Shown here: in pieces, positions 3,272-38,137 of the stretch
How positions within the stretch are numbered: the stretch's first letter is position 1
How the letters are laid out: every line of letters begins with the position of its first letter
From: Membranipora membranacea
Lineage: Eukaryota; Bryozoa; Gymnolaemata; Cheilostomatida; Membraniporidae
Assembly (NCBI GenBank): GCA_914767715.1
Contig: OU612067.1
Span: 25,704,162 to 25,768,161, forward strand
Length of the DNA: 64,000 bases
Reading direction: 5' to 3'
Notes under the pieces: model-generated
What the model saw: the letters and a program-made list of their open reading frames with translations, nothing else
Databases searched by the model: none
Told to the model about the DNA's origin: nothing
Program-made: the position numbers and the translations under genes

Positions 3272-3649
3272 TCACTTTGTACTATAACCGAGCTTCTGAA
3301 GAAGACTTTCCTTAGTAGACTTATTGTTACACTTTGTAGTGTCTCGTTTGTCTACTGCTGGATGGAGTATGAGCATCTTCTGCAGAGTGCTTCGTACTTC
3401 TGGGTCCTGGCTGTAACCTTTCTTCTTCATACACCAGATTGCATTAGTTGTCATGTCATGCATTGATGTTTTGCCATCAGCTTGCTTAATCTGATCAGCA
3501 ATAGCACCAAGGAATGCTCCTCTTTCTGACATTCCTCCAACTACTGTTGAAATCAATAACAGAGTGTGCGCCCTGTCCAGTACTATGCTATTTCGCTGGC
3601 TGGTGGAGAGTCCAGAATATACGGGTTGACAAGCCTGAATTATGACCAC
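3272..3649 (-). CDS. Last exon: caspase p10-like half with the catalytic Cys
   Basis: The exon follows a TTTTACAG acceptor and joins the previous exon in phase 0. It opens with VVIIQACQP, the strand carrying the caspase nucleophile (family consensus QACRG; Arg-Gly is Gln-Pro here). About 28 residues on, LLLISTVVGGMSERG resembles the p10 stretch with STxPGxxSWR, so the Arg that contacts the substrate Asp seems kept (S-E-R for S-W-R). From Cys to that Arg is 36 residues, against 44 in caspase-3, so the loop normally cut between large and small subunits is short. The rest (IWCMKKKG, STLQKMLILHP) fits p10 helices. A Lys/Asn-rich tail of about 25 residues ends at TAA. I assign this by motif; the protease may act as a single chain. 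Confidence 0.8.
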   Translation of the reverse strand: MVIIQACQPVYSGLSTSQRNSIVLDRAHTLLLISTVVGGMSERGAFLGAIADQIKQADGKTSMHDMTTNAIWCMKKKGYSQDPEVRSTLQKMLILHPAVDKRDTTKCNNKSTKESLLQKLGYSTK

Positions 3650-6600
3650 CTGTAAAATTCAATCATAGATATGTGTTGAATTTGCAAAGTCTTCAGACTC
3701 AGACATCGTAGAGGTAAATTCTAAGTCAAAGTGATAACTAAAAGTCTCAAACACAGGGGAGGACGATTAACGGATAGTAACATTGTAACGAATTTGTACT
3801 TTGATCCACACAGCGGATATCCTGGTGCTATCTCCACAATATCCAGTTATGATCCAATCTATGTAATATATATTCTAAGATAAACCGCAGGTTAACTTAC
3901 CAATGGGATGTGCGCAGGTAGCCTCGCCTTCAGCAGATCTAGAATATTCGATATCGGCATTTTAGAGTCATTGGCACCTGCTAGATTTCCGGCTTCTCCG
4001 TGTGACATCAGCGAGACAACAAGTAGTGAGAGGCCTTCAGATAGCAGCTTACTGAGCTCACTATCGATGGTGGGAGGTAGCTTTTTCGCATCAGTCCATT
4101 CGAATAAGCTGGTCGTGATCCCAACATGCGTTAAGCTGTCTCCGATGGCGTTAGCCTCCTCAGTAGCACCCTCTCTCTGATCTGTGCTATACAGCACTAA
4201 TCCAAACGACTTGACATGAGTCTGCATGATTGGTATGATGTACTGATCACTTCTATCAAAGAGCAGACTGATATCTTCTGTGTTTAGTGGGTGTTTCTCT
4301 ACAAGCTCCTTCAGTGTCTTGGCCTCACCTGATCAAAAACACATCGTTCAAATGATAGTTTTAACCAGTTATATATTTCGTATAGCTCATCTGGGCATGG
4401 CCACAGTATAATAAGCGTATAATTCTCAGTTTTTTATTTTTTTATCAAAATTGAAGACTGGAAGAGATATAAATCGCAGGGTACGATCAACATTGCTGCC
4501 CTTCATGTTGTACATATTTTATGCATATTTTATACTTACTTGATAAGTTGATGTTTGAAACATACTGCTTGAGCACATCCTGTCCCTTTTCAACAACGGC
4601 TGAACCTGAAATGGAGATAATTGGGTGTTTAAAGCTGCTGATAGAGAGACCAAATATTCATTGATTCGTTGTGTAGAGTGATCAAAGCTCAGATGCGTGT
4701 TAACACATCGATTCTAAAGTGGAACACCGGAGCCACTCCCATAAACCTCACATGTTCTCTATTCCATTCTAGTTCTCGTTCTAAAAATCGGCCCAGGGAG
4801 TGTGAAAATGAAGACCAATTACATTTTAGTGCAAACATATAGATCTTTTAGCACTCATGTCGGAATAAATCAGCAAATTTTGATACTCTTCAGGTATATT
4901 TGATTCATGAATATCTACTCACATGGATACATCAGCGGTGTTGGGATATCAGCATCCTGTGCACAGCTGAAAACCTCATCCCCACTGTAGATGTTACGAG
5001 CTGGTTCATTGGCTGCTAGAGTTTCTGTTTGAAACCAGGAGGGATCCACTTCTGTATGAGGAGACGGGTTGCTTGTAAGTAAGCAATGTGAACAATAGAA
5101 AACAGTCTCATAACGCACTCCTCTCCAAACAGATTTCAGCTCAGCAATCAGCTGTTGAAGAGAAGCCAGTTGTTTTGTCCAAGCCTCAGCGACGTTTTTA
5201 GGAAGAGCGAGAGTCAGTAGTGTGACACGGTTGTCAGAAGCATTGTGCAGCAGGTATTTCTGTATTCTGTTGCTTTGGGATACAACAGCACCATTAGTAC
5301 CAACAGCAGGAGAAGAGAATGGCTCGGAATTTTTATCCAGATATGCCGCTGTGATTAGTGAGAACACGTAGCCTGGAACTTTAAAACCACGCAGGTATAG
5401 ATCTACTTTAAGAGGTATACGGTTAGTAAAATCCCCTGGCGCTTTGATCTTTCTAGTGGCAAAGTATGGTATGATGTATTTCTGATCACATGGTCTAGCA
5501 TCTGGCCCACATAGATGGACTAGTTGAAATGATCTCAGAATTTCCACTGCAGCATTAGCTGGTAGTTGTGATTCTCTCTCCAACATATTTACGAGTAAAG
5601 CTGCTTCCATGACCCCAGACCTATTGTAAGTCGTTATCATATCCTGATATTTATATTCTCCTATTGACTTGCCGTCATGTTCAAAAGGGATAAAATTATC
5701 CAAACGGGTCGACCAGTCTTTATCATGGGTGTGGCTATAGAGGATTGCTATCAGGCCAGTTATGATCTGGTGGCGGTGGAAGACATAACAGGAGAGCTTA
5801 GGATTGTTTTTGAACCACATCAGTCGTCCGATTTCATGTAGATATTCCAGGGTCACGTGATCAGGGTCATTGGGGAACTTGATATCAATCTCTGAAAGTT
5901 TGATAAACGGCTTGGTTGTTTCTGACTCGATATCAACAAGCATAACATACCAGCTGCCAGGTATTTCAGTATTCAATACGGCGCCTACAGCTACCAGCAT
6001 TTCTTTAAGTGAGTCAATATCAGGTTTAGATGATTTGGTCGAGAAACCTGAAATCATATTAACCCTTATCAGAAGCTCTGAAATGTCAGTGAAGCTTTTC
6101 ATGATGAAAATTGGACTCAGGGATGATGCCACATGTGTTTCGGACTTGATTATTTTGTGGCGTAATTTCTCGGTTGTGTCAATAAGCTGCTGTTTCCTCA
6201 GATTGTAGCACTCATCAGATATCTTATCACAGTGAGTCAGAACTACTACTGGTCGACAGAGAGTAGGACAAGCTATGTACATGTGGGACAGCCAGTCGAG
6301 GCAAACATCCTGACATGCAGCTTCCTCTCCCTGCTGTACTACTAATCTGTCAAACTCTGCAATGTCTATCACAAGGAGTGGAACACTTTGCGACTTAAAT
6401 GACAGTTGGTAGGCAAAGTTATAGATTTTATGCCCTCCAAAGTCAACAAAGACCAGCTTAGTGTTCTGGTCGACAGCTGCCTCACAGACTTTGAATACTT
6501 TGGTAGCCTCATCTAACATCCCTTCAGTAGATGTTCGTGATGTGAGTACTCTTTTGTTCTGCTGAACACTCTTCACCAGACTTGTTTTCCCTGCTTCACT

Positions 6601-9600
6601 CTTTCCGATAACAGTCACAGGTATGAATCGCAGATTACTACCTTTTTCCAATTTTAGGTCTGAATAGTATTTTCTCACAGCAGTCACACCCTGTTTGCAG
6701 ACAGCATATGGAGGAGATGTTAGTGCAGTACAGCCGTCACAGTCAAAAGTTGTGAGTGTTTTGATGCTGAACAGGCTCTCAGGTAGTGTGGTGAGTGATG
6801 AGTTGTCACTGATATCCAGTGCACGAAGGTTACTCAGCTCTCCTACGCTGCAATAATAAATTATGTTTTTTACTTAACGAGGAAAATATACAATCTTCAC
6901 TGTGTATATATTTCTTACTTGCTGAATGAAAATCTCCATTTGCATTAGCATCATTAAAACTTTTTTGCTTTTTTGTTCTTTACTTGTCGGATAACCATGT
7001 TTGGTTTGGTAGGTAGTAATGAGTCAGAAAATTTACTAAAGACTGTCCGCTATATCTTTAGTCCTTAATTTAGCATATTGCCGAATCCTGGTGTCAAGTT
7101 CTCAAACTCCTACTCAATAATGTAAGAACCCAATTTAGCTAGCAATTGCCAATAAAACCTTCAGGTGGTAGTGGGTAGACAACTAGTGCTAAAACAAAGA
7201 GGATTCTCACTCCGTCTCGGACAGCATCGGGAAAGTTCGACGCTTACGAACTTTCCAGATACTGTCCCAGACGGACCCAGACAGTCTGGGATTGTGTCAT
7301 TTTCATTTTCACATTAACTGGGATGGTTATCTGGGATGGTCATCTGGGACAATGTTCACCAGCCATTATGGCTGGTGCACATTGTCCCAGACTACCATCC
7401 CAGATAACCTAACCTAACCTAACCTAACCTAACCTGATACATTTTAATGCCTCCAGCTGAGTCAGTGAACTGATGCTGTAATAAATATACATGTATATTA
7501 ATACATAATGTCAGATGAGGAACCAGATCCGCCTCATTTCTTCTATATCATTTTCGCACCAGGCCGTTATCCCACCTCCCGTTATCCCATGAAGCCATTT
7601 CCCCCCTGGATGAGTTACCATGCTGCCATTTTCCTGCTTTGACAATTTCTCACCAATCCATTTTTCCACCAAGACATTTTCAGTTTGGGCTGTTTTCCGA
7701 ACAAGCCAATTATCCTCCAAGAAAAATTCCAAATGGACTGTTTTCCCACCAAGACCATTTATCACACCATGCAGTTTTCCCGGCATAGTTTTTTTTAACA
7801 TAATACTAACAGTTTTCATGTCCAGCCAACGTTGTAAAAGGCAGTTTGGGTAATGGACCTGTGACTTGATTTCATTGTTAAAGTTTGTGGATTTTGTTTT
7901 GAGTTTTCCAGCGCACAAGTAATTGTACAACTGACTGATTTCAACAAGATGGTCTCAATGTTATAAAATACTTTTTCAGCAAAAGAACTTTATTGTTCCT
8001 ATAGCGTTTTCTGTACCAATCAGAGAAGAACTGCGAGATCATATTAATGTAATTGATAAATTACTGACCAATGACATTTTTTCACACGCCATTTTGCTAC
8101 TACACATTATTTATAAGTTGTACAGCATTCTACGAGCCATATGTATTGCTGAAGAGATATCTGGTAAACGCTGACAAGGTTATTGGCAAAATCCCTCTTT
8201 AAAATGAAGCTTACACCATGTGTGTACACTGCATGGCCTGACCATGCATGTTAAAGTTTGTTGTACTAATTTTCAAGCTATTATCAATAACCACCAAACA
8301 ATGTAAAGAAAATTAAACTCCTTTTGGGGTTTGAGGCTACCATTTTTTTCCGAGACAATTTCATAACATCCAAGCTTTATCAAACTTTGGAATTGTTTCC
8401 TCTTGTAATAGTTTGGGATCCTGGGGTCAAAATCCATGTTGAAAGTGTAAAAGCTGAGTTTCATACATTATTTAGTATAAGTGTTATATTTTTGTATTCC
8501 ACTCTCAGACCAGAAATCACAAGGGTTGTTTTATGGAATTTCACTCATCTTAATCAGGGGGGACATCTTTTTCCATAATCAACTTTTCAGAACATATCTT
8601 TAACTTGTGATTAGCTTTGTATAGGAATTAAAAATCATTTACCCAGATTGTTGATGTGCTGCCAATTGCGCAACGTCATGACCTTACATTAATTTTCTGT
8701 GTTTGTCATCTTGAAAGGTATTTTTCAATTATCTATGGGCTTGTCAGATAAACTGAATCAGCAGAAATTTTTTTAAGTGTCTAGAGAAAAATAATTGAAA
8801 AATTTATTCAGCTATCTCTGATCAGTTGGAAATTATAATGAATTCAATCGAGTATGCCCCTTTATGAATGAAGTGAATTGACGTAACGCTAAACAATCAT
8901 GATCGTATTGCGTGTAATTGTTGCAAATTTAAGTGTTTAGCTGTTTTAAAAAAGCTCTACATTAACAGAAATCCAGGCTTGAGACATTCTGAACGATATC
9001 ATATAATTCTAACTCATTATTCAGACACAATTAACCTGTTTTTAACTATATATCATTATTTATGTTTCGTTTTCTATTCGTAACAGATGATTCTCAACAG
9101 TGCATTTACGATGTGTTATGTCTCAAAAACCAATTCAGACAAAATTGTGCGATCAAGCTATACTTTCATCAATTTTAATCACTGAAATCAAGACAATATC
9201 ATTTTAAGTTACAGAAGATTGGGGATGCACAGGAAAGATTCCATTCTATCGGTGAACACAAGCAGATGAATGAGCTGCCACAGATACTATGATTCAATTT
9301 TGCTTGCCTTTGGTTTTTCTAATTAACACATTATGTAGGACAGTAAAACAGTTAGATATAAATGTCAGACAAATACACTCAACCTAAACCATGAGTTAAT
9401 AAAGTTGCTAGCTCTGTTTAGTTACCAGGTTACAAACTCCAGCCTATCCAGCTTGGACTTGAAGGAACCTATAAGTCATGCTCCGTTAACCAGTCCAGGT
9501 CAATCCTGTAAATAAATCTGAAAAGCCTAACGATTACTATGAGATGCACACTTGGGGAGGTAGTAGGCAAATATTTATGAGAATGACGCCTTGCTGAGGT

Positions 9601-12600: not shown

Positions 12601-15600
12601 ACGGTTACTGCTCTTAACCTGACGCCCCTACCCACGGGATGGTAAAATGGAAAAATGTTATTCTATTATGTAGGCTAAACCTATGTCCAACAATCAAGGC
12701 ACGACTCTTCTGCCAGCTAGGCATCTATAGTGATGTTGTCTTGATTTCAGTGATTTAAGTTGATGAAAGTATAGCTTGGTCACAAAATTTTGTCTGAATT
12801 GGTTTTTGAGACATAACACATCTTAAATGTACCGTTGAGAATCATCTGTTACAAAAGGAGAAGAAAATCTAAATAATTTTGTGGGTAGTAAAAAACAGGT
12901 TAACTGTGTCTGAAAATGAGTTAAAATTATATGATAATGTTCAGAGTGTCTCTAGCTTGTATTTCAGTTAATGAAGACCTTTTTTAAAACAGCTAAACAC
13001 TTAGAATTTGCGACAATGACATACAATACGATCATGATCGTATAGCATTACGTCAATTCACTCCATTCATAAAGGGGCATACTCGGATTGAATTCATTAT
13101 ACTTCCCAACTGATCGGAGATAGCTGAATAAATTTTTCAATTATCATTCTCTAGACACTTATAAAAATTTCTGCTGATTCGGTTTATCTGACAAGCCCAT
13201 AGATAATTGAAAAAAAAACTTTGAAGATGACAAACACAAAAAATTGATGTAATGTCATGACGTTGCGCTATTGCCAGCACATCAACAATCTGGGTAAATG
13301 ATTTTTAGTTCCTATGCAAAGCTAATGGTATCGGGAAACTATATCCAGATTAACATTAGTGAAATTCCATAAAACCCCCCTTGTGATTCCTGTTCTGAGG
13401 GTGGAATACAAAAATATAACACTTATACTTGATAATGTATGAAACTCAGCTTTTACACTTTTAACATGGATTTGGACCCCGTGATCCCCGACTATAAAGA
13501 GAAGAGACAGCCGCTTAAAATCCGAAAGGCAATTCGTGAAGACCAATGAGCATGAACATTAATAATTCCATTGAAGAATCTGTCCTATCAAAATAAGGGT
13601 GGCCATTCATTGTAGGCCAGACATAGATGATGTCTGGTAATCTATACTTACATAACTTGTCATTGACCTTTGCGACAGTTTTCCAAGTGCCAAATGGGAT
13701 TTCGGCAAACAAAAATCAATAAACACCTTTAGAACAAAAAATATCAACCTAATTTTAATTAATCGTCCTATCCTTCCAAATCACTTTGAAGTACATCAAA
13801 CGACATCTGAAACTGAATCTCATGAAGATGAGAGGAGTTAAGAAATTTAGTGTATGAATTCAAAGCATCCAATTTTGAGAGATACAGCAGAAACTCATTT
13901 AAAACAACTTAGAGGGGTTCAATAACTTGTAATGACAGGTCTTCTAAAAGTGAATCTTAGTGGACATATAATTCTTTGTTTTCAAAAGACAACATTTAGA
14001 AAAAAAGGGATAAAGAGGCACATTGCAGAGAGATGATTAATGCATGTCTTCTTGTTTACAAGAAAAGGCAAAGCTGTGATCTATTTCTATGAGAATTGTT
14101 CCACATGCGCACTGTACTCGCTGTCTACCGGGGGCCCTTGGGCTTTTCACCAGCTTCACTAGGAATTAGGCTAATGACTGCCCACTCTCCTCAGAGCTGT
14201 ATTGGTGAAAGTAATACTGATTGAATGCAAAATATTATTTACAATAATGAATTATTGTGGGGATATGGCTAAGTGGGAAAATCACTTGCATGCATGACGG
14301 GAGGTGGGAAAAGGACATTGAGAAGTTTTCCTATACTATATACTAACTAGAAATGCAGGGGTGTATATTAAGAGATGTAATAGAGATGTAAATAAAATCT
14401 GGCTTCACCGGGATTCGAACTCAGGCCTCTCGTGCAAAGCCATCTAATCCAGGTGTTTAAATATAATGATGTAGTGGGTGTAAGTATTAATGAATAGAAA
14501 AGTAAACCTCATAGTAGTGGTGTAACTCCTCCTTTGTCACTCTGGTCTAAGAACCAATTTGGCTTCACCAAGAATTAAACTTGGGCCTCTTGCGCTGTGA
14601 TCGAGCGCACTAGCCACACAGCCACGCCTGCCCACTGGAGCTCATGGATTTAAATTGAATATGAATTGGAAAAGTAAGCTGTTGTGTAATTTTGTTTAAA
14701 CTTATGTTTTTCAAGCTTTCATGGCAGAAATCAGGCAAAAAAAGTGTAAAATATATTATATGCACACCCTCACCTGGTTTTACTATACATTTATGGTTGA
14801 AGACGGGGCTTTGATTCAGCCATTTCTTCTATTTTTTTAAAAAACACGTTTTGAAAAAGTAATATGAGGCACTGGATATGGGTTTCTTTAATTTTAGTTT
14901 GTATACATATACATTTATCATAAAAAGAGAACTTAGAATTTGTGGACAAGTTACCCAAAGTTGTACTTAACTGTGAACTGGTTCAGTTACAAAGTTGAAT
15001 ATTTAAGAACCAAAATTAAATCTTATAGCCTTCTAATATAAAAACACAGAAATAAATTTACCCTTTAATGATCTTTTTTATCCAAAATAAAATTTATATT
15101 GATCATCAGACTGAGAATAGCAGGTACATACTCACCACTCAGGTAGCTGTTTGAGGTCACAGCCGCTCACACGTAACTCACTCAGTGCTCTCAGCTCACA
15201 CAGCCACTCAGGTAATGTGTGTAGAGCTCCATTACCTGATACACCTAATACCTCCAGCTGAGTCAGTGATCTAATACTGTAATATATAATATATAATATA
15301 GATAATTATTAATACATCACATGAAATGAGAGGAGGTGCTTTGTAAACAAGTTAAGTCGTATATCATAAGGATCTAATGGCAGCCCCTCAGTACGTAATC
15401 TTGTGTTTATAAAATCATCTCAAAAGTATAATTTCCTTAGCACCGATCTCTCTGCGACCGGGGAGGGGGGGGGAAATTCTCCTTGCTGTGACAGATAGTT
15501 GACAACAAGAAGTGAAACGACAAATAATTATTTGCATGTCATACGCTATATGATATAAGAATTCAAGACTAACTTCTAGTTATATAGAAATAGAGGGCAT

Positions 15601-18600
15601 TGGATATCCTACATTCCATTTCTACATTGATTAACAATCGAGGATAACAACTTCATATCTGCATCCAAAGATCAAAATTCAATAATAGCAAAACCTCAAA
15701 TTTAAAAATGAAATGCTCATTTATTGAAGGTGAAGAAAAATGATAGATAGTCATGGCTGAACAATATTAGTAATTATTTTTGAAAAAATAAATTTTAGTC
15801 TGCATCCTTACTATGCAGCCACTAAGTCATAGCTGGCAAGAAGGCAACCCATTTTTTCATCACTTTATTTGTAAGTTAACATTTCAAAAAATTGAAGATT
15901 ATTGCAAAAATCTTTTTATCAGTGACAATGCTGTAGTAATTGATAGACTGAAAATAGCAGGTACAGACTCACCACTCAGGTAGGTGTTTGAGATCACATC
16001 CGTCCACACTTAACTTTCTCAGTGATCTCAGCTCACACAGCCACTCAGGTAATGTGTGTAGAGCTCTATTAAATGATACATCTAATACCTCCAGCTGAGT
16101 CAGTGATCTAATACTGTAATATATAACATATATAGATAATTATTAATACATCACATGAAATGAGAGAAGGAGCTTTGTAAACAAGTTATGTCGTATATCA
16201 TAAGGATCTAATGGCAGCCCCTCAGTACGTAATCTTGTGTTTATAAAATTATCTCAAAAGTATAATTTCCATAGCACCGATCTCTCTGCGACCGGGGGGG
16301 GGGGGGGAATTCTCCCTGCTGTGACAGATAGTTGACAACAAGAAGTGAAACGGCAAATAATTATTTGCATGTCATACGCTCTATGATATAAGAATTCAAG
16401 ACTAGCTTCTAGTTATATAGAAATAGAGGGCATTGGATATCCTACATTCCATTTCTACGTTGATTAACAATCGAGGATAACAACTTCATATCTGCATCCA
16501 AAGATCAAAATTCAATAATAGCAAAAGCTCAAATTTAAAAATGAAATGCTCATTTATTGAAGGTGAAGAAAAGCTTAGTCAGTGATCTAATACTATAATA
16601 TATACATGTATATATATAATAATACATCATGCGAGATGAGGAGCAGGATCCACCCTATTTCTTCTATCTCATTTTCGCACCAGACCGTTACATAGTCACG
16701 GCTGAACAACATTAGTAATTATTCTTGAGACATATAATTTTTAGTCTGCATCCGTACTATGCAGCCTTACAATAAGTCATAGCTGGCAGGAAGGCAACCT
16801 ATTTTTTCATCACTTTATTTTTTAAGTTATTTATGTTTTTATTTTATGTATTTATTTTATTTTATGTAGTTATTTTAAGTTATTTATGTGATTATTTAAG
16901 TTATTTAAGCCATTTATGTCACATCATGAAAAACATTAGTAATAATGAATTGTTGCTGACACTAAAAGTATATATTTATATATAAGTTAATATTTCAACA
17001 AATTGAGGATTGCAAATATCTTTTATCAGCAGTGACAATGCTGTAGTAAATGATAGACTGAGATTAAGAGATACAGACACACTGTCAAACAACTCGCTAT
17101 GATGGAATTTTCTACACTTGATTACTACATTAGTTAATCAACGGCATATTATAATTTTATATTTGAATCCTAAAATCTAGAATTAAGACAGAAGTTTGGC
17201 AAAATTCGAATGTGAAGGCTAATTTATTGGAATGTAGAATTAAAAGATAATATAGTTATTGTTATCAACGTTAGACATTATTCTTAAACTTGACAGATTT
17301 CCCAAGTCTCAATCCTTATAACACAGCCTTTTGATAATGTATCGCTGGTAAAAGACAACCTGTTTATTCACTTTAGCTTAGTTATTAATATTTCACAGCC
17401 TCCTCAAAGGTAAGGATTATTGAAGAAATAAAAAACAAAATATGAATCGACTCGACAGACTCACCACTCAGGTAGCTGTCTGAGATCACAATCTCTAACA
17501 CGTAACTCCCTCAGTGCTCTCAGCTCACACAGCCACATAGGTAATGTGTGTAGAGCTTTATTACCTGAGGATTATGCTGATTGACTTGAATTTTTAGAGC
17601 TGCTTACTCTCTGTGATTTTATTTCTGAGATGTCTAAAACTGTTTTTAACAATATTGTATATATATTAGTTGTGTTGTTTTTAACTGTGCAAAGGTATCC
17701 TCTTGCCTACATACCATCTATCGCCCACCAAAGTGCAGGGCTCAAAAGCGTTTAAAGAGATTTTTTCCTTACCACATGTCAGCTTTCAACAAAGTTTAAA
17801 TTTCACATTTTCATGTACCGATCCAATTATATCGCTTGCTGATACATGGATTAAAATAATATACCTATCCTAACCTTACCTAATGGCTGGTTCACATTGT
17901 CCCAGACGACCATCCCAGATAACCTAACCTAACCTAACCTGAGACAGTTAATACCTCCAGCTGAGTCAGTGAACTGATGCTGTAATTAATATACATGTAT
18001 ATTAATACATCATGTCAGATCAGGAGCCAGATCCGCCTCATTTCTTCTATCTCATTTTCGCACCAGGCCGTTATCCTACCTCCCACTAACTCATGAAGCC
18101 ATTTCCCCCCTGGATGAGTTACCATGCTGCCATTTTCCTGCTTGGAAAATTTCTCACCAATCCATTTTTCCACCAAGACATTTTCAGTTTGGGCTGTTTT
18201 CCGAACAAGCCATTCTTCCTCCAAGAAAAGTTCCAAATGGACAATTCCCATTTATCACACCATGCAGTTTTCACGGCTTAGTTTTTTTTTAACATATATG
18301 AACAGTTTTCACGTCCAGCCAATGTTGTAAAAAGCAGTTTGGGTAATGGACCTGTGAGTTGATTTCATTGTTATAGTTTGTGGATTTTGCTTTGAGTTTC
18401 CAGCGCACAAGTAATTGTACAACTGACTGATTTCAACAAGATGGTCTCAATGTTATAAAATACTTTTTCAGCAAAAGAACTTTGTTGTGCCTATAGCCTT
18501 TTCTGTACCAATCAGAGAAGAACTGCGAGATCATATTAATGTAATTGAATGAATTACTGGGCATTGGGACATTTTTTCACACGCCATTTTGCTACTACAC

Positions 18601-21600: not shown

Positions 21601-24600
21601 CAGAGGACATCTGAAACCGAATCTCATGAAGATGAGAGGAGTTAAGAAATTTAGTGTACAAATTCAAAGCATCCAATTTTGAGAGATACAGCAGAAACTC
21701 ATTTAAAACAACTTAGAGGGGTTCAATTACTTGTAATGACAGGTATTCTAAAAGTGAATCTTAGTGACCATAAAACTCTTTGTTTTCAAAAGACAACATT
21801 TACAAAAAAGGGATAAAGAGGCACATTGCAGAGAGATGTGTAATGCATGCCTTCTTGTTTACAAGAAAAGGCAAAGCTGTCATCTATTTCTATGAGAATT
21901 GTTCCACATGCGCACTGTACTTGCTGTTTACCGGGGGCCCTTGGGCTCTTCGCCAGCTTCACTAGGAATTAGGCTAAAGATCTGCCCCACTCTCCTCTAA
22001 AACTCACATTGGATTGGTGAAATTAATACTGATTGAATGCAAAATATTATTTACAATAATGAATTATTATGGGGATATGGCAAAGTAGGAAAATCACTTG
22101 CTTGGATGACGGGAGGTGGGAAAATGACATTGAGAAGTTTTCCTATACTATATACTAACTAGAAATGCAGGGGTGTATACTAAGAGATGTAATAGAGATG
22201 TAAATAAAATCTGGCTTCACCGGGATTCGAACTCAGGCCTCTCGCGCACAGCCATTTAATCCAGGTGTTTAAATATAATGACTTAGTGGGTGTCAGTAGT
22301 AATAAATAGAAAAGTTAACCTCATAGTAGTGGTGTTACTCCTCCTCTGTCACTATGGTCTAAGAACCAATTGGCTTCACCAAGAGTTAAACTTGGGCCTC
22401 TTGCGCTGTGATCGAGCACACTAGGCACTCAGCCACGCCTGCCCACTGCAGCTCACGGATTTAAATTCAATATGAATTGAAAAAGTAAGCTGTCGTGTAA
22501 TTTTGTTAAAATTTTCTGTTTTTCAAGCTTTCATGGCAGAGATCAGGCAAAAAAGGTGTAAAATATATTATATGCACACCCTCACCTGGTTTTACTATAC
22601 ATTTGTGGTTGAAGACAGGGCTTTGATTTGGCCATTTCTTCTATTTTTTAAAAAACATGTTTTGAAAAAGTGTTATGAGGCACTGGATATGGGTCTCTTT
22701 TATTTTATATGCATATACATTTATCATAAACACAAAACTTAAAATTTGTGGACAAGTTACCCAAAGTTGTACTTAACTGTGAAGTGGTTCAGTTAAAAAG
22801 ATGAATATTTAGGAGCTAGCCTGCAATAATTATGCAAGAACCAAAATTAAACGTTACAGCCTTCTAACATAAAAATACAGAAATAAATTTACCCTTTTAT
22901 GATCTTTTTTATCCAAAATAAAATTTATATTGATCATCAGACTGAGAATAGCAGGTACATACTCACCACTCAGGTAGGTTTTCAAGACCACACAAGCTCA
23001 CATGTAACTCTCTCAGTGATCTCAGCTCACACAGCCACTCAGGTAATGTGTGTAGAGCTCTATTCCATGATACATCTAATACCTCCAGCTGAGTCAGTGA
23101 CCTGATACTGTAATATATACATGTATATATATAATAATACATCATATGAGATGAGGAGCAGGATCCACCCCATTTCTTCTATCTCATTTTCGCACCAGGC
23201 TGTTAGATAGTCACGGCTGAACAACATTAGTAATTATTCTTGAGACATATAATTTTTAGTCTGCATCCGTACTATGCAGCCTTACAATAAGTCATAGCTG
23301 GCAGGAAGGCAACCTATTTTTTCATCACTTTATTTTTTAAGTTATTTATGTATTTATTTTATGTATTTATTTTATTTTATGTAGTTATTTTAAGTTATTT
23401 ATGTGATTATTTAAGTTATTTAAGCCATTTATGTCACATCATGAAAAACATTAGTAATAATGAATTGTTGCTGACACAAAAAGTATATATTTATATAGAA
23501 GTTAATATTTCAAAAAATTGAGGACTACGGATTGCAAATATCTTTTATCAGTTACAATGCCGTAGTAAATAATAGACTGAGATTAAGAGATACAGACTCA
23601 CTGTCAAACAACTAGCTATGATGGAATTTTCTACACTTAATTACTACATTAGTTATCAATGGAGGATTTTCATTTTATATTTGAATCCTAAAATCTAAAA
23701 CTCAGACGGAAGTTTGGCAAATTCCAATGTGAAAGCTAATTTATTGGAATGTAGGGATAAAAGATAATATAGTTATCGTTATCAACGTAAGACATTATTC
23801 TTACTTAAACTTGACCGATTTCTCAAGTCTGAATCCTTATAACACAGCCTTTCGATAATGTATCGCTGGTAAAAGAAAACCTGTTTATTCACTTTAGCTT
23901 AGTTATTTATATTTCACAGCCTCTTCAAAGGTAAGGATTATTGAAGAAATAAAAAACAAAATATGAATTGACGCGACGTGACAGCCTCACCACTCAGGTA
24001 GCTGTCTGAGATCCAATAACTCCCTCGGTGCTCTCAGCTCACACAGCCACACAGGTAATGTGTGTAGAGCTTTATTACCTGAGGATTATGCTAATTGACT
24101 TGAAATTTTAGAGCTGCCTACTCTATGTGATTTTATTTCTGAGATGTCTAAAACTGTTTTTAACAATATTGCGTCCAATGAAGACCATCCTCTTTTTTGT
24201 TGTGTTGTTTTTAACTGTGCAAAGGTATCCTCTTGTCTACATACCATCTATCGCCCACCAAAGTGCAAGACTCAAAAGCGTTTAAAGAGCTATTTTCCTT
24301 ACCACATGTCAGCTTTCAACAAAGTTTAAATTTCTCATTTTCATGTACCAATCCAATATTACCGCTTGCTGATACATGGATTAAAATAATAAATCTCCCC
24401 TAACCTAACCTAATGGCTGGTTCACATTGTCCCAGACGACCATCCCAGATAACCTGACCTAACCTAACCTAACCTAACCTGATACATTTTATACCTCCAG
24501 CTGAGTCAGTGAACTGATGCTGTAATAAATATACATGTATATTAATACATAATGTGAGATGAGGAACCAGATCCGCCTCATTTCTTCTATATCATTTTCG

Positions 24601-27600
24601 CACCAGGCCGTTATCCCACCTCGCAATATCCCATGAAGCCATTTCCTCCCTGGATGAGTTACCATGCTGCCATTTTCCTGCTTGAACAATTTCTCACCAA
24701 TCCATTTTCCACCGAGACGTTTTCAGTTTGAACTGTTTTCCGAGCAAGCCATTTTTCCTCCAAGAAAAATTCCAAATGGACTGTGTTCCCACCTAGACCA
24801 TTTATCACACCATGCAGTTTACCCGGCATCGTTTTTTTTAACATTTATTAACTGTTTTCACGTCCAGCCAACGTTGTAAAAAGAAGTTTGGGTAATGGAC
24901 CTGTGAGTTGATTTCATTGTTATAGTTTGTGGATTTTGTTTTGAGTTTTCCAACGCACAAGTAATTGTACAAATGACTGATTTCAACAAGGTGGTCTCAA
25001 TGTTATAAAATACTTTTTCAGCAAAAGAACTTCGTTGTGCCTATAGCCTTTTCTGTACCAATCAGAGAAGAACTGCGAGATCATATAAATGTAAGTGAAT
25101 AAATTACTGACCAATGGGCAGAACATAAATTAGAACATTGGGGCATTTTTTCACATGTCATTTTGCTACTACACATTATTCAAAAGTCGTACAGCATTCT
25201 TCTAGCCATATGACTTGCTGAAGAGATATCTTGTAAACGCTGACAAGGTTATTAGCAAAATCCCTCTATAAAATGAAGCTTACACCATGTGTGTACACTG
25301 CATGGCCTGACCATGCATGTTAAAGTTTGTTGTACTAATTTTCAAGCTATTATCAATAACCATCAAACAATGTAAAGAAAATTAATCTCCTTTTGGGGTT
25401 TGAGGCTACAATTTTTTCAGAGGCAATTTCATAATATTCAAGCTTTATCAAAATTTGGAATTGTTTCCTCTTGTAAAGAGAAGAAACAACCGCTTAAAAC
25501 CAGAAAGGCAATTCGTGAAGACCAATGAGCATGAACATTAATAATTCCATTGAAGAATCTGTCCTATCAAATAAGGGTGGCCATTTATTGTAGGCCAGAC
25601 ACAGATGATGTCTGGTAATCTATACTTACATAACTTGTCATTGAACTTTGCGAAGAGTTTTCCGAGTGCCAAATGGGATTTCGGCAAACAAAAATTAATA
25701 AACACCTTGAGAACAAAAAATATAAACCTAATTTTAAGTAATCGTCCTATCCTTCCAAATCACTTTGAAGTACATCACACGACATCTGAAACTGAATCTC
25801 ATGAAGATGAGATTCAGTTTCAGGCTAAAGATCTGCCCACTCTCATCTAGAACTCACATTGTATTGGTGAAATTAATACTGATTGAATGCAAAATATTAT
25901 TTACAATAATGAATTATTGTGGGGATATGTCTAAGTGGGAAAATCACTTGCTTGGATGATGGGAGGTGGGAAAATGACAATGAGAAGTTTTCCTATACTA
26001 TATACTAACTAGAAATGCAGGGGTGTATACTAAGAGATGTAATAGAGATGAAAATAAAATCTGGCTTCACCGGGATTCGAACTCAGGCCTCTCGCGCAAA
26101 GCCATCTAATCCAGGTGTTTAAATATAATGATGTAGTGGGTGTAAGTAGTAATAAATAGAAATCTTACAGCCTTCTAACATAAAAATAGCAGGTACAGAC
26201 TCACCACTCAGGTAGGTGTTTCAGACAACAGGAGTCCACTTGTAACACTCTCAGTGCTCTCAGCTCACACAGCCACTCAGGTAATGTGTGTAGAACATTA
26301 TCTGATACTTTAAATACCTCCAGCTTAGTCAGTGATCTAATACTGTAATATATAATATAAGCTGATTGGTGTATTTATACACAATTGTATGAATATTGGT
26401 TTAATATTTCACTCGGCTGACAAAAAATGGGATCAGGGAGGAATATCCTCTATCACAGTGTCTCATACATGTTCATACTCTCTAAACAGGATTGTGATTT
26501 CTGTTTGGAGATCAATTATGATAACACAATTAAACTTCATAATGAGATCTATACGAGCTTGTAATCTCTAAACAAAAAGCTTGAACCATGGCAAAACACC
26601 AGAAAGACAAATTTTCAATACGGCTCAATTGTGTGTTTAAGAGAGAATGTCATCTCAAAAAGCAGAGTTGACTCCGCAATGAGATACCATAACTCACTTC
26701 TGTAGCTGACCACAGTTTGTTATGTCTCTCAGTGTGATCTCTCTCAGGTTAGCGGCTATCTTATCTAGGTTAGGTGGGATATCACCCTTAATGTACATAT
26801 GTGTGATCTCCAGTCCTTGTGTAGCTGCTGATAACTCATCAGGTGTATATGATGTGAGAACACTATCACTTATATAGGGGATGGAATCGATGTCTCGCTC
26901 TGAGGTATGACGGTACCAGATCTCATACTTAGAACCTGTAAAAGTGAGTCAATATATCACTGATTGGGATAGCAAGACTAGAAATAATTCATACAATGAC
27001 ACATTTTAAAATTAAAATTTCTGCCAAGCGATCTGTTGGATACCTCCACATCAACCACGGGGAGACAACTCACAATATTGATTTTATAATAAGCATAAAA
27101 ATCTAAATTAAAATCAATATCAGAGCAGGGTGTTTGGGACCAAACTCGCTGATCATAGGCCACCTGATGTTTCTCTTCTTGTAGTTGCGCCTTCAAACGG
27201 TTGCTAGTATGTGGTATCCGTTAGCAAAGTTTGATTATGTGATATCACAAATTCGTACTCCCAACAGTGTGGGCAGTAGTGGCAGTAGTGTCACTGGTGA
27301 TTATCATACTGACTCTCGTGATCTGACTGGGCATGTAGATCACTGATAAACTAGGCTATAGTTACCACAAAGTAGATGTCGTAAGGCTAAGTATAAATCA
27401 TGCGTGACTTTAAATTGCGCATGTGCAAGAACAATGAGTTTAGTCTAGGTCCTGAGAGAAAATTTGGTCAGGGAGAATGGGATAGCCCCTGCATGAACTG
27501 CCAATCAAAATCAGCTAATAGTGACAAGAGAGAATAACTATCAATATCAATTCCGCACGCATTGAAGAGCATACCACCAGAGCAGGTAGCCAATCAGATG

Positions 27601-27813
27601 GCTTCGGAATTCCGAGGCTCAATTTTGCAGAGATCAGCTCATGCCCAGAGCTGAGCATGCGCAGAATGGGTGATTATTATAATCCAGCATTATAATCAAT
27701 CAAATATACAGCAGACTTCATAGGCTATTATCATACTCACCAGTGGCCGATAGTCCGGCTCTACTGTCAACATGATCTCCTCTCCGGTTATGTGTTCCAA
27801 AATAATTCTCCAT
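3272..27813 (-). CDS. LRR-Roc-COR-caspase fusion protein (whole gene model, 10 exons)
   Basis: Exons, 5' to 3' on the minus strand: 27813-27741, 26935-26698, 26342-26205, 23107-22967, 16113-15973, 15276-15136, 6847-4923, 4605-4540, 4328-3901, 3649-3272. Every junction is GT-AG and the phases fit; they sum to 3669 bases, exactly 1223 codons with the stop. Predicted order: N-terminal 25 residues, LRR cap (26-104), eight cassette LRRs (105-290), last LRR and linker (about 291-360), Roc GTPase (about 365-550; P-loop GKSEAGKT near 372, DFGGH near 426, THCD near 495), COR (about 560-900), helical linker (930-990), caspase-like domain (995-1222; His near 1064, Cys near 1104). ROCO proteins are signalling GTPases that act as dimers, and caspases cut after Asp. 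From the domain order I infer a cytosolic sensor linked to proteolysis. No signal peptide or membrane segment is visible. Which cassettes are spliced in is not knowable from DNA alone; others may be skipped. Confidence 0.8.
3901..4328 (-). CDS. Exon 9: helical linker and caspase p20-like half
   Basis: The exon starts after TTTTTGATCAG and ends at CCATTG|GTAAGT. About 38 helical, charged residues come first; they could be the end of a small adaptor fold, but I cannot name one. The caspase-like part then starts at VKSFGLVLYSTDQREG, where the Arg followed by Gly matches the position of the first Asp-binding Arg of caspases. It continues through an alpha-helix (ATEEANAIGDSL) and reaches LLVVSLMSHGEAGNLAG, the strand and loop holding the catalytic His. 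MPISNILDLL matches the helix before the QAC strand. His to Cys across the next junction is 40 residues, close to 42 in caspase-3. Introns on each side are 251 and 211 bases. Confidence 0.85.
4540..4605 (-). CDS. Exon 8: 22-residue linker exon between COR and caspase parts
   Basis: This 66-base exon has an ATTTCAG acceptor and a GTAAGTAT donor and starts and ends in phase 1. It encodes a hydrophilic helical stretch including GQDVLKQYVSNINLS. It is too short for ORF searches but is required: without it the Roc-COR exon and exon 9 still match in phase, so it could also be skipped without a frameshift. Confidence 0.7.
4923..6847 (-). CDS. Exon 7: last LRR, Roc GTPase and COR domains
   Basis: One 1925-base exon follows a TTATTGCAG acceptor. 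Its first 45 residues are a last LRR with LPESLF, followed by the linker SPPYAVCKQGVTAVRKYY seen between LRR and Roc in animal ROCO proteins. The Roc domain shows the P-loop GKSEAGKTSL, the switch II DFGGH and the base-recognition THCD. COR follows, with an MLVAVGAVLNTEIPG helix, IGRLMWFKNNPKL, the EAALLVN region and a late CSHC cysteine pair. No kinase domain follows, unlike LRRK proteins; the donor after LMYP leads to the caspase exons. The reading frame is intact throughout. I see one GTPase departure: THCD in place of NKxD, which is common in Roc domains. Confidence 0.92.
6848..7210. other. Intron next to the Roc-COR exon, shared with array 2
   Basis: No gene. The sequence is closely matched at 37036-37396, with the match ending near 7210 and 37396. 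This shows that the two ROCO loci are paralogous copies beyond their exons. Confidence 0.7.
7211..7435. mobile_element. Foldback MITE followed by (CCTAA)n
   Basis: Several nested hairpins are visible: GGGAAAGTTCG facing CGAACTTTCC, and a larger one centred on ACCAGCCATTATGGCTGGT with ACAATG and CATTGT arms. It repeats CTGGGA / TCCCAG motifs. The right end runs into AACCT repeats. A related, longer copy lies at 52657-53090, and short end fragments (TGGCTGGTTCACATTGTCCC) sit in every LINE tail of the arrays. No coding capacity. Confidence 0.6.
7436..7475 (-). pseudogene. LRR cassette remnant (5' part only)
   Basis: The last 40 bases before the acceptor at 7475 encode SSLTQLE in frame; it then runs into the (CCTAA)n tail. 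The other half is missing: the plus-strand left flank is MITE and then intron sequence, so this copy was cut by a rearrangement. Confidence 0.65.
7476..8408. repeat. Intronic unit sequence with a degenerate GGAAAATGG pattern
   Basis: No gene. Related copies are at 17980-18902, 24520-25480, 53162-54114 and 62309-63235, with shortened ones at 42170-42455 and 45630-45915. On the minus strand, 7560-7800 keeps short spaced GG(T)GGGAAAATGG-like words, which leave accidental open frames of 60-139 codons. The frame is not kept between copies, so I do not call a protein. Confidence 0.6.
8409..13494. mobile_element. Long-terminal-inverted-repeat element, copy 1, with internal RT
   Basis: The left end (TAGTTTGGGATCCTGGGGTC) and right end are inverted copies of each other, and the match runs inwards about 750-800 bases (8409-9200 against 12735-13494). 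TAA flanks both ends, and related units at 18897-18908, 25475 and 63230 show the empty site TTGTAAAGAG. So the element is real and made a 3-bp TAA duplication. TAA target sites occur with PIF/Harbinger-type DNA transposons, but I find no transposase; the interior is decayed reverse transcriptase sequence. It may be a nested or composite element. Confidence 0.75.
9600..11420 (-). pseudogene. Decayed non-LTR retrotransposon reverse transcriptase (copy 1)
   Basis: Reading right to left there are fragments of one RT in several frames. A fingers region with QFTSVFS and KAPGQDGVST (11400-11200) comes first. A palm region follows with VPLGSVIES, YYINDLPENTKC and LFADD (11000-10850). A thumb and C-terminal region has VKYLGVTFNSKLTWRTHI (10050-9950). 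LFADD is the catalytic motif. The order and spacing fit a jockey/CR1-like ORF2. Frameshifts and stops break it, so it is not functional. Confidence 0.75.
13498..14330. repeat. Intronic unit sequence
   Basis: No gene seen. The stretch is part of the repeated intron unit and matches 18905-19575, 21308-22150, 42430-43250, 45900-46770, 49515-50360 and 63235-63905. Short open frames on both strands recur but decay between copies. Confidence 0.6.
14390..14640 (-). repeat. Dimeric tRNA-derived SINE
   Basis: Two tRNA-like halves on the minus strand. One (about 14635-14555) has GCGTGGCTGTGTGGC as box A, an anticodon-type stem GCGCT/AGCGC and a T-arm CCAAG/CTTGG. The other (about 14440-14400) has the box B GAGTTCGAATCCC. 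Both end in GGTGAAGCC. It is not a working tRNA: the acceptor stem does not close and the anticodon loop lacks T33. Confidence 0.6.
15136..15276 (-). CDS. LRR cassette exon 6 (two LRRs)
   Basis: A 141-base phase 2-2 exon, acceptor TATTACAG and donor GTGAGT. It encodes IRSLTQLEVLGVSGNGALHT, then LPEWLCELRAL, then SELRVSGCDLKQLPE: two LRRs, the second of the L-x-x-L-x-V-x-x-C type. It lies 697 bases downstream of the next cassette within a duplicated unit of about 830 bases. Confidence 0.85.
15277..15972. repeat. Intron of the 830-bp cassette unit, with G run
   Basis: No gene. Nearly identical introns occur at 16114-16570, 38138-38590, 38610-39313, 39455-40142 and 40284-40740. Each holds a homopolymer G run (8-13 bases) at about 180 bases from the exon, with a different length in each copy. 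Confidence 0.75.
15973..16113 (-). CDS. LRR cassette exon 5 (two LRRs)
   Basis: A 141-base phase 2-2 exon with intact splice sites. The first LRR has LDVSFNRALHT, the second LRKLSVDGCDLKHLPE. Its flanking introns closely match those of the cassette at 15136-15276, but the two exons differ at the exposed beta-strand positions. Confidence 0.85.
16574..16612 (-). pseudogene. LRR cassette remnant at a deletion junction
   Basis: Only about 24 bases of a cassette 5' end (AGCTTAGTCAGTGATCTAAT on the plus strand) remain, fused directly to intron sequence. The same junction (GAAGAAAAGCTTAGTC) is at 38592 and 40735, so one deletion was copied by later duplications. Confidence 0.7.
16613..17464. repeat. 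Intron unit with AT-rich TTATTTATG minisatellite
   Basis: No gene. It holds imperfect repeats of TTAAGTTATTTATG at 16826-16920. Matching blocks are at 23335-23430, 40985-41080, 44460-44555, 47965-48060, 51560-51655 and 61145-61240. Confidence 0.7.
17465..17979 (-). pseudogene. LRR cassette split by a LINE fragment (array 1)
   Basis: The halves 17465-17568 and 17943-17979 add up to exactly 141 bases, the normal cassette length, when one copy of the ACCTGA target duplication (17563-17568 and 17937-17942) is left out. The 3' half reads RELRVRDCDLRQLPE. Splice sites survive at both ends, but the insert introduces stops right after VSG, so this exon cannot be used. Confidence 0.85.
17569..17936 (+). 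mobile_element. 5'-truncated LINE fragment with (CCTAA)n tail
   Basis: Plus-strand insert: a remnant of a retrotransposon ORF2 C-terminus (this copy is partly eroded near 17660), a short 3' UTR with GCTTGCTGATACATGG, and then a (CCTAA)n tail split by a MITE end. The 6-bp target duplication ACCTGA flanks it. Confidence 0.65.
17980..19589. repeat. Intronic unit with an unfilled long-TIR site
   Basis: No gene. It matches 62309-63918 almost throughout, including the chimeric junction near 19577 (AAAGATCTGTTATAAG). The empty TAA site of the long-TIR element is at 18897-18902. Confidence 0.65.
19590..21304. mobile_element. Partial long-TIR element: interior part and right end
   Basis: It matches 11860-13494 of copy 1, ending in the same TIR and TAA (21305). 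The left TIR and the RT region are missing. The unit sequence before it (18903-19577) repeats after it (21305-21980), so this arose by recombination between a filled and an empty unit rather than by insertion. Confidence 0.7.
21305..22966. repeat. Intronic unit with dimeric tRNA-derived SINE
   Basis: No gene. The SINE lies at 22190-22445 on the minus strand with box B at about 22225 and the second tRNA-like half at 22380-22440. The remainder is shared unit sequence. Confidence 0.6.
22967..23107 (-). CDS. LRR cassette exon 4 (two LRRs)
   Basis: A 141-base phase 2-2 exon with TATTACAG acceptor and GTGAGT donor. It reads LDVSWNRALHT and LRELHVSLCGLENLPE. It heads a 3.5-kb-type unit in which a broken cassette (23991-24519) lies about 0.9 kb further along the plus strand. 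Confidence 0.85.
23991..24519 (-). pseudogene. LRR cassette split by a LINE fragment, 12-base deletion form
   Basis: Halves 23991-24082 and 24483-24519 flank the same insertion site. The 3' half has lost 12 bases in the second LRR compared with the copy at 17465. This deletion is shared with 41642 and 45116, and groups those copies. Confidence 0.85.
24083..24476 (+). mobile_element. 5'-truncated LINE fragment with (CCTAA)n tail
   Basis: Plus-strand open frame 24144-24329 with YRPPKCKTQKRLKSYFPYHM. This resembles the C-terminus of CR1/jockey-like ORF2 proteins, where a P-x-C-x-T-x-R-x-x-S-F-F-P pattern is common. The (CCTAA)n tail (24397-24476) is interrupted by a MITE end. Confidence 0.7.
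24520..26204. repeat. Intronic unit, shortened, with truncated SINE
   Basis: No gene. It carries the GGAAAATGG-type block (24600-24840), an empty long-TIR site near 25475, and half a SINE with box B near 26075. It joins cassette 26205 after a deletion of the usual 0.9 kb. Confidence 0.6.
26205..26342 (-). CDS. LRR cassette exon 3 (two LRRs, one residue short)
   Basis: A 138-base phase 2-2 exon, one codon shorter than the standard. It reads FKVSDNVLHT in the first LRR and LRVLQVDSCCLKHLPE in the second. It is the first cassette after the capping exon and the most divergent in array 1. The one-codon loss is in the first repeat and keeps the frame. Confidence 0.8.
26698..26935 (-). CDS. Exon 2: N-terminal LRR-cap exon (copy A)
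   Basis: A 238-base exon, phase 1 in and phase 2 out, with CTTTTACAG acceptor and GTGAGT donor. It encodes a region with YEIWYRHTSE, SYTPDELSAATQGLEITHMY, IPPNLDKIAANLREITLRDI and GQLQ. The second half already has LRR rhythm, so it most likely caps the solenoid. The first half (about 40 residues) is a conserved lead-in that I do not recognise. A near-identical copy lies at 28323-28560. Confidence 0.75.
27741..27813 (-). CDS. Exon 1: start codon exon (copy A)
   Basis: It starts with ATG (MENYFGTHNRRGDH), runs 24 codons plus one base and ends at a GTGAGT donor that fits the phase of exon 2. An in-frame TGA lies three codons before the ATG. The same start and donor are kept in copy B at 28983-29049, with a two-codon length difference that preserves the frame. 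That conservation supports it as real coding sequence. Confidence 0.7.
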
Positions 27814-28322: not shown

Positions 28323-28560
28323 TTCTGTAGCTGACCACTGTTTGTTATGTCTCTCAGTCTGATCTCTCTCAGGTTAGCGGCTATTTTATCTAGGTTAGGT
28401 GGGATATTACCCTTAATGTACATATGTGTGATCTCCAGTCCTTGTGTAGCTGCTGATAACTCATCAGGTGTATATGATGTGAGATCTCTATCTCTTATAA
28501 TGGGGATGGAATCGATGTGTGGCTCTGAGGTATGACGGTACCAGATCTCATACTTAGAAC
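28323..28560 (-). CDS. LRR-cap exon, copy B (duplicated exon 2)
   Basis: A 238-base duplicate of 26698-26935 with open frame and intact splice sites. The differences are mostly amino acid changes around EPHIDSIPIIRDRDL, while the LRR-like half is nearly unchanged. It could join exon 3 in frame as an alternative 5' end, or be left from a duplication. Each possibility needs transcript data. Confidence 0.6.
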
Positions 28561-28982
28561 CTGTAAAAGTGAGTCAATATATAACTGACTGGGATAGCAA
28601 GACTACAAATAATTCATACAATGAAACATTTTAAAATTAAAATTTCTGCCAAGCGATCTCATGGTTACCTCCACACCAACTACAGGGAGACAACTCACAA
28701 TATTGATTTTATAATAAGCATAAAAATCTAAATTAAAATCAATACCAGAGCAGGGAGTTTGGGACCAAACTCCCTGATCAGAGCCACCTGATGTTTCTCC
28801 TCTTGTAGTTGCATCTTCAAACGGCCGCTAGTTTGTGGTATCCGTTAGCAAAGTTTGATTATGTGATACCACAAATTCGTACTCGCAACAGTGTGGGCAG
28901 TAGTGGCACTAGTGATTATTATAATCCAGCATTATAATCAATCAAATATACAGCAGACTTCATAGGCTATTATCATACTCAC

Positions 28983-29049
28983 CAGTGGCCGATAGTCCGG
29001 CTCTACAGTCAACAAGATCTCCTCTCTGTGTTCCAAAATAATTCTCCAT
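28983..29049 (-). CDS. Start codon exon, copy B
   Basis: Duplicate of exon 1: ATG, MENYFGTQRGDLVDCRAG, same donor and phase, 22 codons plus one base. It lies 422 bases upstream of cap exon copy B. Together they form a complete alternative 5' end of the same gene, or the start of a lost tandem copy. Confidence 0.55.
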
Positions 29050-36698: not shown

Positions 36699-37035
36699 TT
36701 ACACAATAATGGTTGCTGGTTGGGTAATGATATATGGGTCAGTTTCAAACAATTCTAGAATTGTACAGAATTGTCTAACAATTCTTGGGTATGAAATGAA
36801 GTGAGGTATGAATCGCAGATTACTACCTCTTTCCAATTTTGGTTCTGAATAGTATTTTCTCACAGCAGTCACACCCTGTTCGCAGACAGCATATGGAGGA
36901 GATGTTAGTGCAGTACAGCCATAACAGTAAAAAGCTGCAGTGAGTGTTTTGATGCTGAACAGGCTCTCAGGTAGTGTGTTGAGTGATGAGTTATTAGCGA
37001 TATTCAGTGTACGAAGGTTACTCAGCTCTCCTACG
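36699..37035 (-). pseudogene. Truncated paralogue of the Roc exon (last LRR and linker only)
   Basis: From the acceptor at 37035 it matches exon 7 of the fusion gene through the last LRR, SPPYAVCEQGVTAVRKYY and LERGSNLRFIP. The match stops at about 36804, just before the P-loop. Unrelated sequence then stays open to TAA at 36699-36701. All GTPase, COR and caspase parts are lost. With the cassettes at 37997-60917 it could still make a LRR-only protein of array 2, or splice onward; no donor in the foreign tail is convincing. Confidence 0.75.
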
Positions 37036-37996: not shown

Positions 37997-38137
37997 CCCT
38001 CAGGTAGCTGCTTGAGATCACAGTAGCCCACATGTAACTCTCTCAGTGCTCTCAGCTCACACAGCCCCTCAGGTAATGTGTGTAGAGCTCCATTCCATGA
38101 TACATTTAATACCTCCAGCTTAGTCAGTGATCTAATA
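37997..38137 (-). CDS. LRR cassette exon, array 2 (a)
   Basis: 141 bases, phase 2-2, splice sites intact. It reads LNVSWNGALHT, LPEGLCEL (Gly for the usual Trp) and LRELHVGYCDLKQLPE. It is the cassette nearest the truncated Roc exon. Confidence 0.8.

Follow-up and report, generated by a model that had tools for sequence, protein, structure and literature searches.

Can a single eukaryotic gene encode a sensor, a GTPase switch and a death protease? The question is raised by a gene on the minus strand of a 64-kb stretch of the Membranipora membranacea genome (339 Mb, 18 contigs; C3:25704162-25768161), which is referred to here as the window. An original prediction, made from this sequence, had placed a leucine-rich-repeat (LRR) ROCO GTPase joined to a caspase domain at 3272..6847. 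The gene is represented by ten exons (27813-3272) encoding 1222 residues without an internal stop, exactly the length that the prediction's numbering had implied, and the domain order along the predicted protein is LRRs, Roc-COR and caspase. It is moderately probable that the locus encodes a one-protein intracellular sensor-executioner, i.e. an LRR-ROCO GTPase ending in a caspase, and its role would probably be that of an intracellular immune sensor. The earlier description of a sensor, switch and protease in one protein stands for the domain architecture; for the functional roles it does not go beyond what we infer from sequence, and the same applies to immune function, splicing and protease activity. 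Two features had not been part of the original prediction: the gene sits in a large tandem family, and its LRR cassettes are hypervariable.

Gene model and domain architecture

Exon 1 (27741..27813, 73 nt) provides the start ATG and begins MENYFGTHNRRGDHV; exon 2 (26698..26935, 238 nt) encodes the N-terminal portion of the LRR region, followed by four LRR cassettes with phase 2-2 borders, i.e. exon 3 (26205..26342, 138 nt), exon 4 (22967..23107, 141 nt), exon 5 (15973..16113, 141 nt) and exon 6 (15136..15276, 141 nt). Exon 7 (4923..6847) is a single open frame for the final LRRs, the linker PPYAVCKQG (PP..V.KQG), the Roc GTPase and COR. A linker of about 22 residues is encoded by exon 8 (4540..4605, 66 nt), the p20-like part of the caspase with Arg1006, His1064 and the MSHG motif by exon 9 (3901..4328), and the QAC motif (Cys1104), the p10-like part with Arg1140 and the stop TGA by exon 10 (3272..3649). 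All introns have GT/AG borders and matched phases; the nine donors all rank within the top 5.3% of GT sites on the minus strand of the window, and the acceptors are unremarkable by a crude pyrimidine count. The open, phase-matched exons that had been claimed were recovered as exons 7-10, whereas the start codon and most of the LRR region lie outside the placement first given, at 15136-27813.

The Roc motifs listed in the original prediction (P-loop GKSEAGKT, DFGGH and THCD) are present in exon 7, and the Roc domain scores 28-29 bits with Pfam PF08477, above the cut-off of 27. In a phmmer comparison of exon 7 with the PDB a prokaryotic Roco was the best match by sequence (E 2.6e-8), and a fold search with an AlphaFold2 (AF2) model (mean predicted local distance difference test score, pLDDT, 71) gave matches to Roco and LRRK structures, with LRRK1/2 among the best; COR was recovered by this fold comparison directly C-terminal to Roc. 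The LRR part of the 1222-residue model matches LRR_14 (87 bits), LRR_8 (84 bits) and further LRR profiles, and it lies N-terminal to Roc-COR as in group 1 ROCO proteins. No Pfam match to a NACHT or NB-ARC ATPase was found in the 1222-residue model at E up to 0.05. The predicted switch domain is Roc, not NACHT/NB-ARC, and the predicted protein may have an NLR-like way of working.

For the caspase, the original prediction had rested on residues 995-1222 belonging to the C14 clan, and Pfam Peptidase_C14 indeed matches residues 1003-1190 (profile positions 15-232 of 233, 41 bits, cut-off 21.4). The joined exons 9 and 10 score 45.2 bits, while exon 9 alone reaches 17.9 bits, below the cut-off, and exon 10 alone gives no match; hence, the full match arises from the exon 9/10 splice join. 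Both catalytic motifs are where they had been reported, MSHG in exon 9 and QAC in exon 10, and the near-normal spacing is seen in the successive distances along R1006-H1064-C1104-R1140 (58, 40 and 36 residues); the equivalent distances in human caspase-3 are 57, 42 and 44. In an alignment that spans p20, the exon 9/10 junction and p10, these four residues match those of L086, a canonical QACRG caspase also encoded in this genome (57 of 205 positions identical, E 9e-11 in a search of eight loci). The columns of R1006 and R1140 we take to be those of the S1 Asp-pocket arginines, both of which had been predicted to be kept.

A profile of the family p20, built from 12 paralog pieces and the window piece and excluding p10, matched 180 PDB sequences, of which the best 60 are all caspases, with CED-3, caspase-8 and caspase-2 among the top matches. 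By direct PDB comparison the p20 of an ancestral caspase-3/6/7 matched the window caspase at E 0.05, and a metacaspase-type likeness of p10 was seen as a weak match only (metacaspase-4, E 0.026-0.17). A PDB profile made from the window caspase and one ancestral caspase was circular and was not used as evidence. The catalytic His and Cys are invariant across 13 aligned caspase sequences. Taken from sequence and fold comparison, the LRR-Roc-COR-caspase architecture and an intact catalytic dyad are supported.

Several observations weigh against this assignment. COR-A scores 15.4 bits with a Pfam cut-off of 35.3, such that the claim of a COR domain holds by fold and fails by profile, and the AF2 fold is not independent of prokaryotic ROCOs because these were included in its alignment. 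The window caspase by itself matches the PDB weakly (best E 0.026, to a metacaspase-4 p10), it reads QACQP rather than QACRG or QACAG, and it has diverged far more than its own Roc-COR; an AF2 model made from exon 9 only (pLDDT 43) was not informative.

Tandem family in the genome

At least 69 matches to exon 7 (69 of 416 candidates scored) and at least 145 matches to the C14 profile (140 of 515 candidates scored) were obtained in the genome, both lists being lower bounds. All of the exon 7 matches are in long frames, one with an internal stop, and most of them belong to tandem clusters on C3 and C5. A C14 match is located less than 4 kb downstream on the same strand in 21 of the 69, as computed on 72 of the 145 C14 rows; the remaining 73 were judged by eye, none being near a ROCO match. 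For C11:3048919, which is counted among the 21, the C14 match is of the p10 type only.

The closest copies, five of the 69 at C3:25.62-26.02 Mb, are 96-100% identical to exon 7; with the window copy they make six, and in all of them exons 8, 9 and 10 are open and have the same lengths, splice sites and stop (6/6). The four active-site motifs are kept in all six copies, with a ratio of replacement to silent substitution rates (dN/dS) of 0.36, and divergence across the six is 2.3% in exons 8-10 and 3.2% in introns 7-9. A window-type caspase was also found in each of four other clusters, represented by one member each (C3:19.39, C3:21.94, C3:14.68 and C5:5.77 Mb); these caspases are 47-57% identical to that of the window in p20 and 46-48% in p10, and share with it the intron just ahead of the QAC strand.

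From the 145 C14 matches 20 were picked non-randomly (mostly strong, from different clusters; 10 kb each), and exon-7 sequence was found upstream on the same strand in 17 of these, with best segments of 25-49% identity. One of the 17 (L095) has only the first 78 residues of exon 7 upstream; the other 16 all have a downstream frame bearing HG and QAC or QSC. No exon-7 sequence was found upstream of L093, L104 and L105 within the fetched 10 kb, a result that says nothing for L104 because only 0.5 kb upstream of its caspase match was covered. The 15 loci with one contiguous Roc-COR exon (L102 was excluded from this set for its split exon) have no stop over 620-648 residues, with the P-loop, D[FL]GG and THxD all retained. 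Values of dN/dS were 0.28-0.60 for the six Roc-COR pairs with dS below 1; four pairs of caspase p20 gave 0.15-0.46, and in a fifth pair, L088-L103, dS was zero. By these sequence comparisons, Roc-COR and caspase are under constraint in the family. Combined, 43 loci have a Roc-COR exon with caspase sequence downstream (the 21 by coordinates, the six tandem copies, the four members of other clusters and 12 fetched loci outside the 69); the count leaves aside the downstream sequence of the other 38 of the 69, and intactness refers to the subsets stated above.

These data bear on the possibility that exon 7 and exons 8-10 are two genes, a ROCO gene and a caspase gene, and that their fusion is an artefact of the gene model. 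The frame of exon 7 hits a stop right past its donor, an in-frame Met stands close to the start of the caspase core, and intron 8 contains one AATAAA/ATTAAA, at 4438, all of which would favour separate genes. Introns 7 and 9, however, contain neither AATAAA nor ATTAAA, the phases match across three junctions, with the 66-nt exon 8 fitting both of its neighbours. Order, strand and exon sizes are the same in all six tandem copies, the order is preserved in the fetched loci and by coordinates in the 21 of 69 ROCO matches, and the distances among Roc-COR domains correlate with those among the caspases (Mantel r 0.43, 2 of 10000 permutations, 16 genes). Two separate genes are therefore highly improbable.

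The caspase part might alternatively be a pseudoprotease serving as a scaffold or as a dominant-negative form. In the vWA-MoxR conflict systems of bacteria, about 70% of the caspase domains that occupy the effector position have been argued to be of this kind (PMC7159879). The QACQP motif and the fast evolution of the caspase relative to its own Roc-COR would agree with such a role. It is opposed by the retention of His, Cys and both Asp-pocket Arg in the six tandem copies, in alignment with a canonical caspase, by the invariance of the dyad in the 13 aligned sequences and by the dN/dS given above for the tandem copies, and we regard a pseudoprotease as distinctly unlikely. Among the four related caspases read, L116 (C5:5767100-5770200) has an in-frame stop in p20, a further point on the negative side for an active family; L116 is probably a pseudogene, and some family members are therefore probably dead.

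Two types of caspase occur in the family: that of the window, which reads QACQ and has its p20 in a single exon, and one that reads QACAG, QACSG or QSCSG, of which L089 has its p20 spread over two exons. The caspase of L100 groups with that of L094 and its Roc-COR with those of L088 and L103; from this grouping and the divergent window caspase we infer an occasional exchange of effectors among family members.

In L114 (C3:21935000-21938100) the caspase frame runs on into a hydrophobic C-terminal stretch that resembles a tail anchor. Four Roc-COR matches (C1:30534588, C11:2957942, C11:3048919 and C3:14198711) are located inside single open frames of 1634-2462 residues; these members thus have a very long exon, perhaps with other fused domains.

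LRR cassettes and their variability

Eleven LRR cassette exons are intact in the window; they measure 135-141 bp, are open and in phase 2-2 throughout, and encode two LRRs each. Four of them belong to the ten-exon gene and seven to an upstream array at 38-61 kb (37997..60917, minus strand; 38137-37997, 39454-39314, 40283-40143, 44232-44092, 47739-47599, 51333-51193 and 60917-60783), which is probably a neighbouring paralogous unit. Substitutions were compared in nine cassettes of equal length, and two with in-frame indels were left out. At the concave positions, i.e. the x positions of both LxLxxNxL strands (eight in all), the proportions of replacement (pN) and silent (pS) differences were 0.392 and 0.170, versus 0.048 and 0.078 for the other codons; these eight positions follow the LRR consensus but were chosen after the alignment had been viewed, and one of them (position 13) is invariant. 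None of 2000 random eight-codon sets reached the number of replacement differences of the concave set.

In the 20 of 36 cassette pairs with a homologous flank (at least one 300-bp flank less than 12% different, a cut that puts a ceiling on the intron figure), the concave codons differ by 35.2%, the non-concave codons by 4.4% and the introns by 4.2%, and exon divergence exceeds flank divergence in 20 of 20. The excess of the concave codons over other codons and introns is a sign of diversifying selection on codons predicted to face the ligand. This reading is tempered by the choice of positions, by the ceiling on intron divergence and by the non-independence of the cassette pairs, and gene conversion could have contributed to the pattern.

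It is rather unlikely that the gene encodes an ordinary protein of development or cell turnover, and no immune receptor, in a family expanded by neutral tandem duplication. DAPK-type ROCOs act in apoptosis generally, and the arrays with truncated and split cassettes resemble birth-and-death evolution, both of which would suit such a protein. The large size of the family and the excess of replacements at ligand-facing LRR codons, as reported for the candidate receptors of brown algae (PMC11378527), argue against it.

Six further LRR cassettes on the minus strand are interrupted (approximate positions 17986-17469, 24527-24017, 42174-41668, 45633-45142, 53169-52220 and 62315-61782), and a lone cassette head is found at 7483-7432. 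The inserts are located at the same codon, have 374-805 bp, start GTTAGGTTAGG and end CCTCAG; splicing them out would restore the exon, whereupon four of the six cassettes are open and two have a stop. The inserts look like an introner-like element spread through cassette duplication. One of these cassettes (about 17469..17986), split by a 374-bp GT..AG insert and with 46 open codons if spliced, is an optional cassette outside the 1222-residue model.

A partial copy of exon 7 (36804..37048, minus strand) comprises its first 245 bp, is broken off just before the P-loop and passes, to 36699, into unrelated sequence with a stop, representing a truncated paralog or an LRR-only product. Second copies of exons 1 and 2 (28323..29049, minus strand; 29049-28983 and 28560-28323) have open frames and are about 94-96% identical to the pair used; they are possibly alternative first exons with an alternative promoter, or a remnant. 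One giant gene across the whole array is not favoured, because the truncated exon-7 copy and the second exon 1/2 pair separate the upstream array from the gene. Two long coiled-coil-like open frames between the LRR arrays (35678-34830 and 32309-31710, minus strand; no Pfam match above cut-off) were considered as N-terminal exons and dropped, because exons 1-2 at 27.8-26.7 kb supply a phase-matched start.

Known systems, proposed mechanism and significance

The layout itself is known from bacteria. Counter-invader proteins of the LRR-AP-GTPase(Roc)-COR type are described with C-terminal domains of at least 24 kinds, among them caspase, and 11 copies may be present in a single bacterium (PMC8195603); they resemble the window gene in domain order, in the C-terminal effector slot with caspase among the effectors, and in the many paralogs per genome. 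The window gene differs in being eukaryotic with introns, in its metazoan-type caspase (QAC, Asp-pocket Arg) and in its cassette LRR exons. In a prokaryotic ROCO sample (83 open reading frames, some cut by contig ends) TIR was found in three, MCU in three and a PD-(D/E)XK nuclease in one, and no caspase in 37 C-terminal tails of at least 110 residues; the bacterial examples rest on PMC8195603.

Among eukaryotes, the LRR-ROCO candidate immune receptors of brown algae, in which LRR exons are shuffled, share the LRR-ROC-COR order, phase-2 LRR exons and an excess of replacements on the concave face; theirs are 72-bp one-LRR exons in plain LRR-ROC-COR proteins (PMC11378527), in contrast to the 135-141 bp two-LRR exons (mostly 141) and the C-terminal caspase of the window gene. 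The ROCO proteins of Trichoplax, which carry CARD, death, TIR and other domains, likewise stand for an expansion, early in animals, of ROCOs fused with death and immune domains, but with adaptor domains and no caspase protease in the available text of PMC4104024. LRRK1/LRRK2, MFHAS1 and DAPK1 share the Roc-COR core and have a kinase or no catalytic effector where the window protein has a caspase (PMC11378527). The expanded caspases of amphioxus show novel architectures concerning death-fold domains (PMC3196919, available text).

The window caspase resembles the animal initiator caspases CED-3, caspase-8 and caspase-2 in its dyad and Arg positions and through the top PDB matches of the paralog p20 profile. 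Initiator caspases are recruited to a separate sensor via CARD or DED prodomains, unlike the window protein, for which sensor, switch and protease are predicted in one polypeptide. No eukaryotic ROCO-caspase family was found in a literature search that covered titles, abstract starts and selected papers, with most subscription papers and the protein databases outside it. The novelty suggested in the original prediction needs correction, since bacterial LRR-Roc-COR proteins with caspase effectors (PMC8195603) and Trichoplax ROCOs with death domains (PMC4104024) have been published; what appears new from the literature searched is a eukaryotic, expanded LRR-ROCO-caspase family with cassette LRR exons.

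Caspases are activated by induced proximity. In the proposed mechanism, the LRR arc would bind variable non-self or damage ligands, and binding would swing the LRR about the LRR-Roc linker and shift Roc-COR in its nucleotide state and between monomer and dimer, as GTP does in the bacterial CtRoco. This change would bring together or free the caspase domains as an active dimer, which would cut substrates after Asp; the most likely output would be this Asp-specific proteolysis and, in the infected or damaged cell, inflammatory signalling or regulated death. New specificities would arise as genes and phase-2 LRR cassettes are duplicated in tandem. CtRoco undergoes a very large GTP-induced change with the LRR-Roc linker as a hinge, and its GTP-bound form is an active monomer (PMC11052575). 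Given this monomerisation, a caspase activated by dimerisation might need the GDP state, the reverse of a simple 'GTP = on' switch; should Roc-COR of the window protein monomerise with GTP in the same way, caspase activity may belong to the GDP-bound dimer or may depend on a higher assembly.

A wider reading, which we consider somewhat less likely than not, is that LRR-ROCO-caspase genes, in numbers from dozens to hundreds, serve this eukaryote as a superfamily of receptors. Each protein would by itself combine sensor, GTP switch and death protease as a GTPase-driven counterpart of the inflammasome; the repertoire would stem from tandem genes and from shuffled, diversifying, possibly alternatively spliced LRR cassettes, and the caspase modules, of at least two kinds, would be interchangeable. 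In the known inflammasomes and apoptosomes of animals, sensor, adaptor and caspase are separate proteins that assemble. If true, a germline family with all of these functions in one protein, and with a GTPase in place of a STAND ATPase as its switch, would represent a simple test system for the activation of caspases by induced proximity, and would give direct access to how Roc-COR couples to an effector, a question still open for LRRK2. It would also link eukaryotic immunity with the LRR-Roc-COR-effector systems of bacteria, and be the second case, after brown algae, of ROCO LRR exons as a diversification device.

Other searches gave no relevant matches: three pattern matches and no relative were found in a viral contig collection, nothing above the curated cut-off in NCBIfam, one weak unrelated row in PADLOC, and none in Rfam and tRNA scans. 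A C14 search of 14 control genomes gave 0 matches, from which nothing is drawn, the make-up of that set not being shown. At 84-257 the window contains a minisatellite with a 45-bp unit in 3.9 copies.

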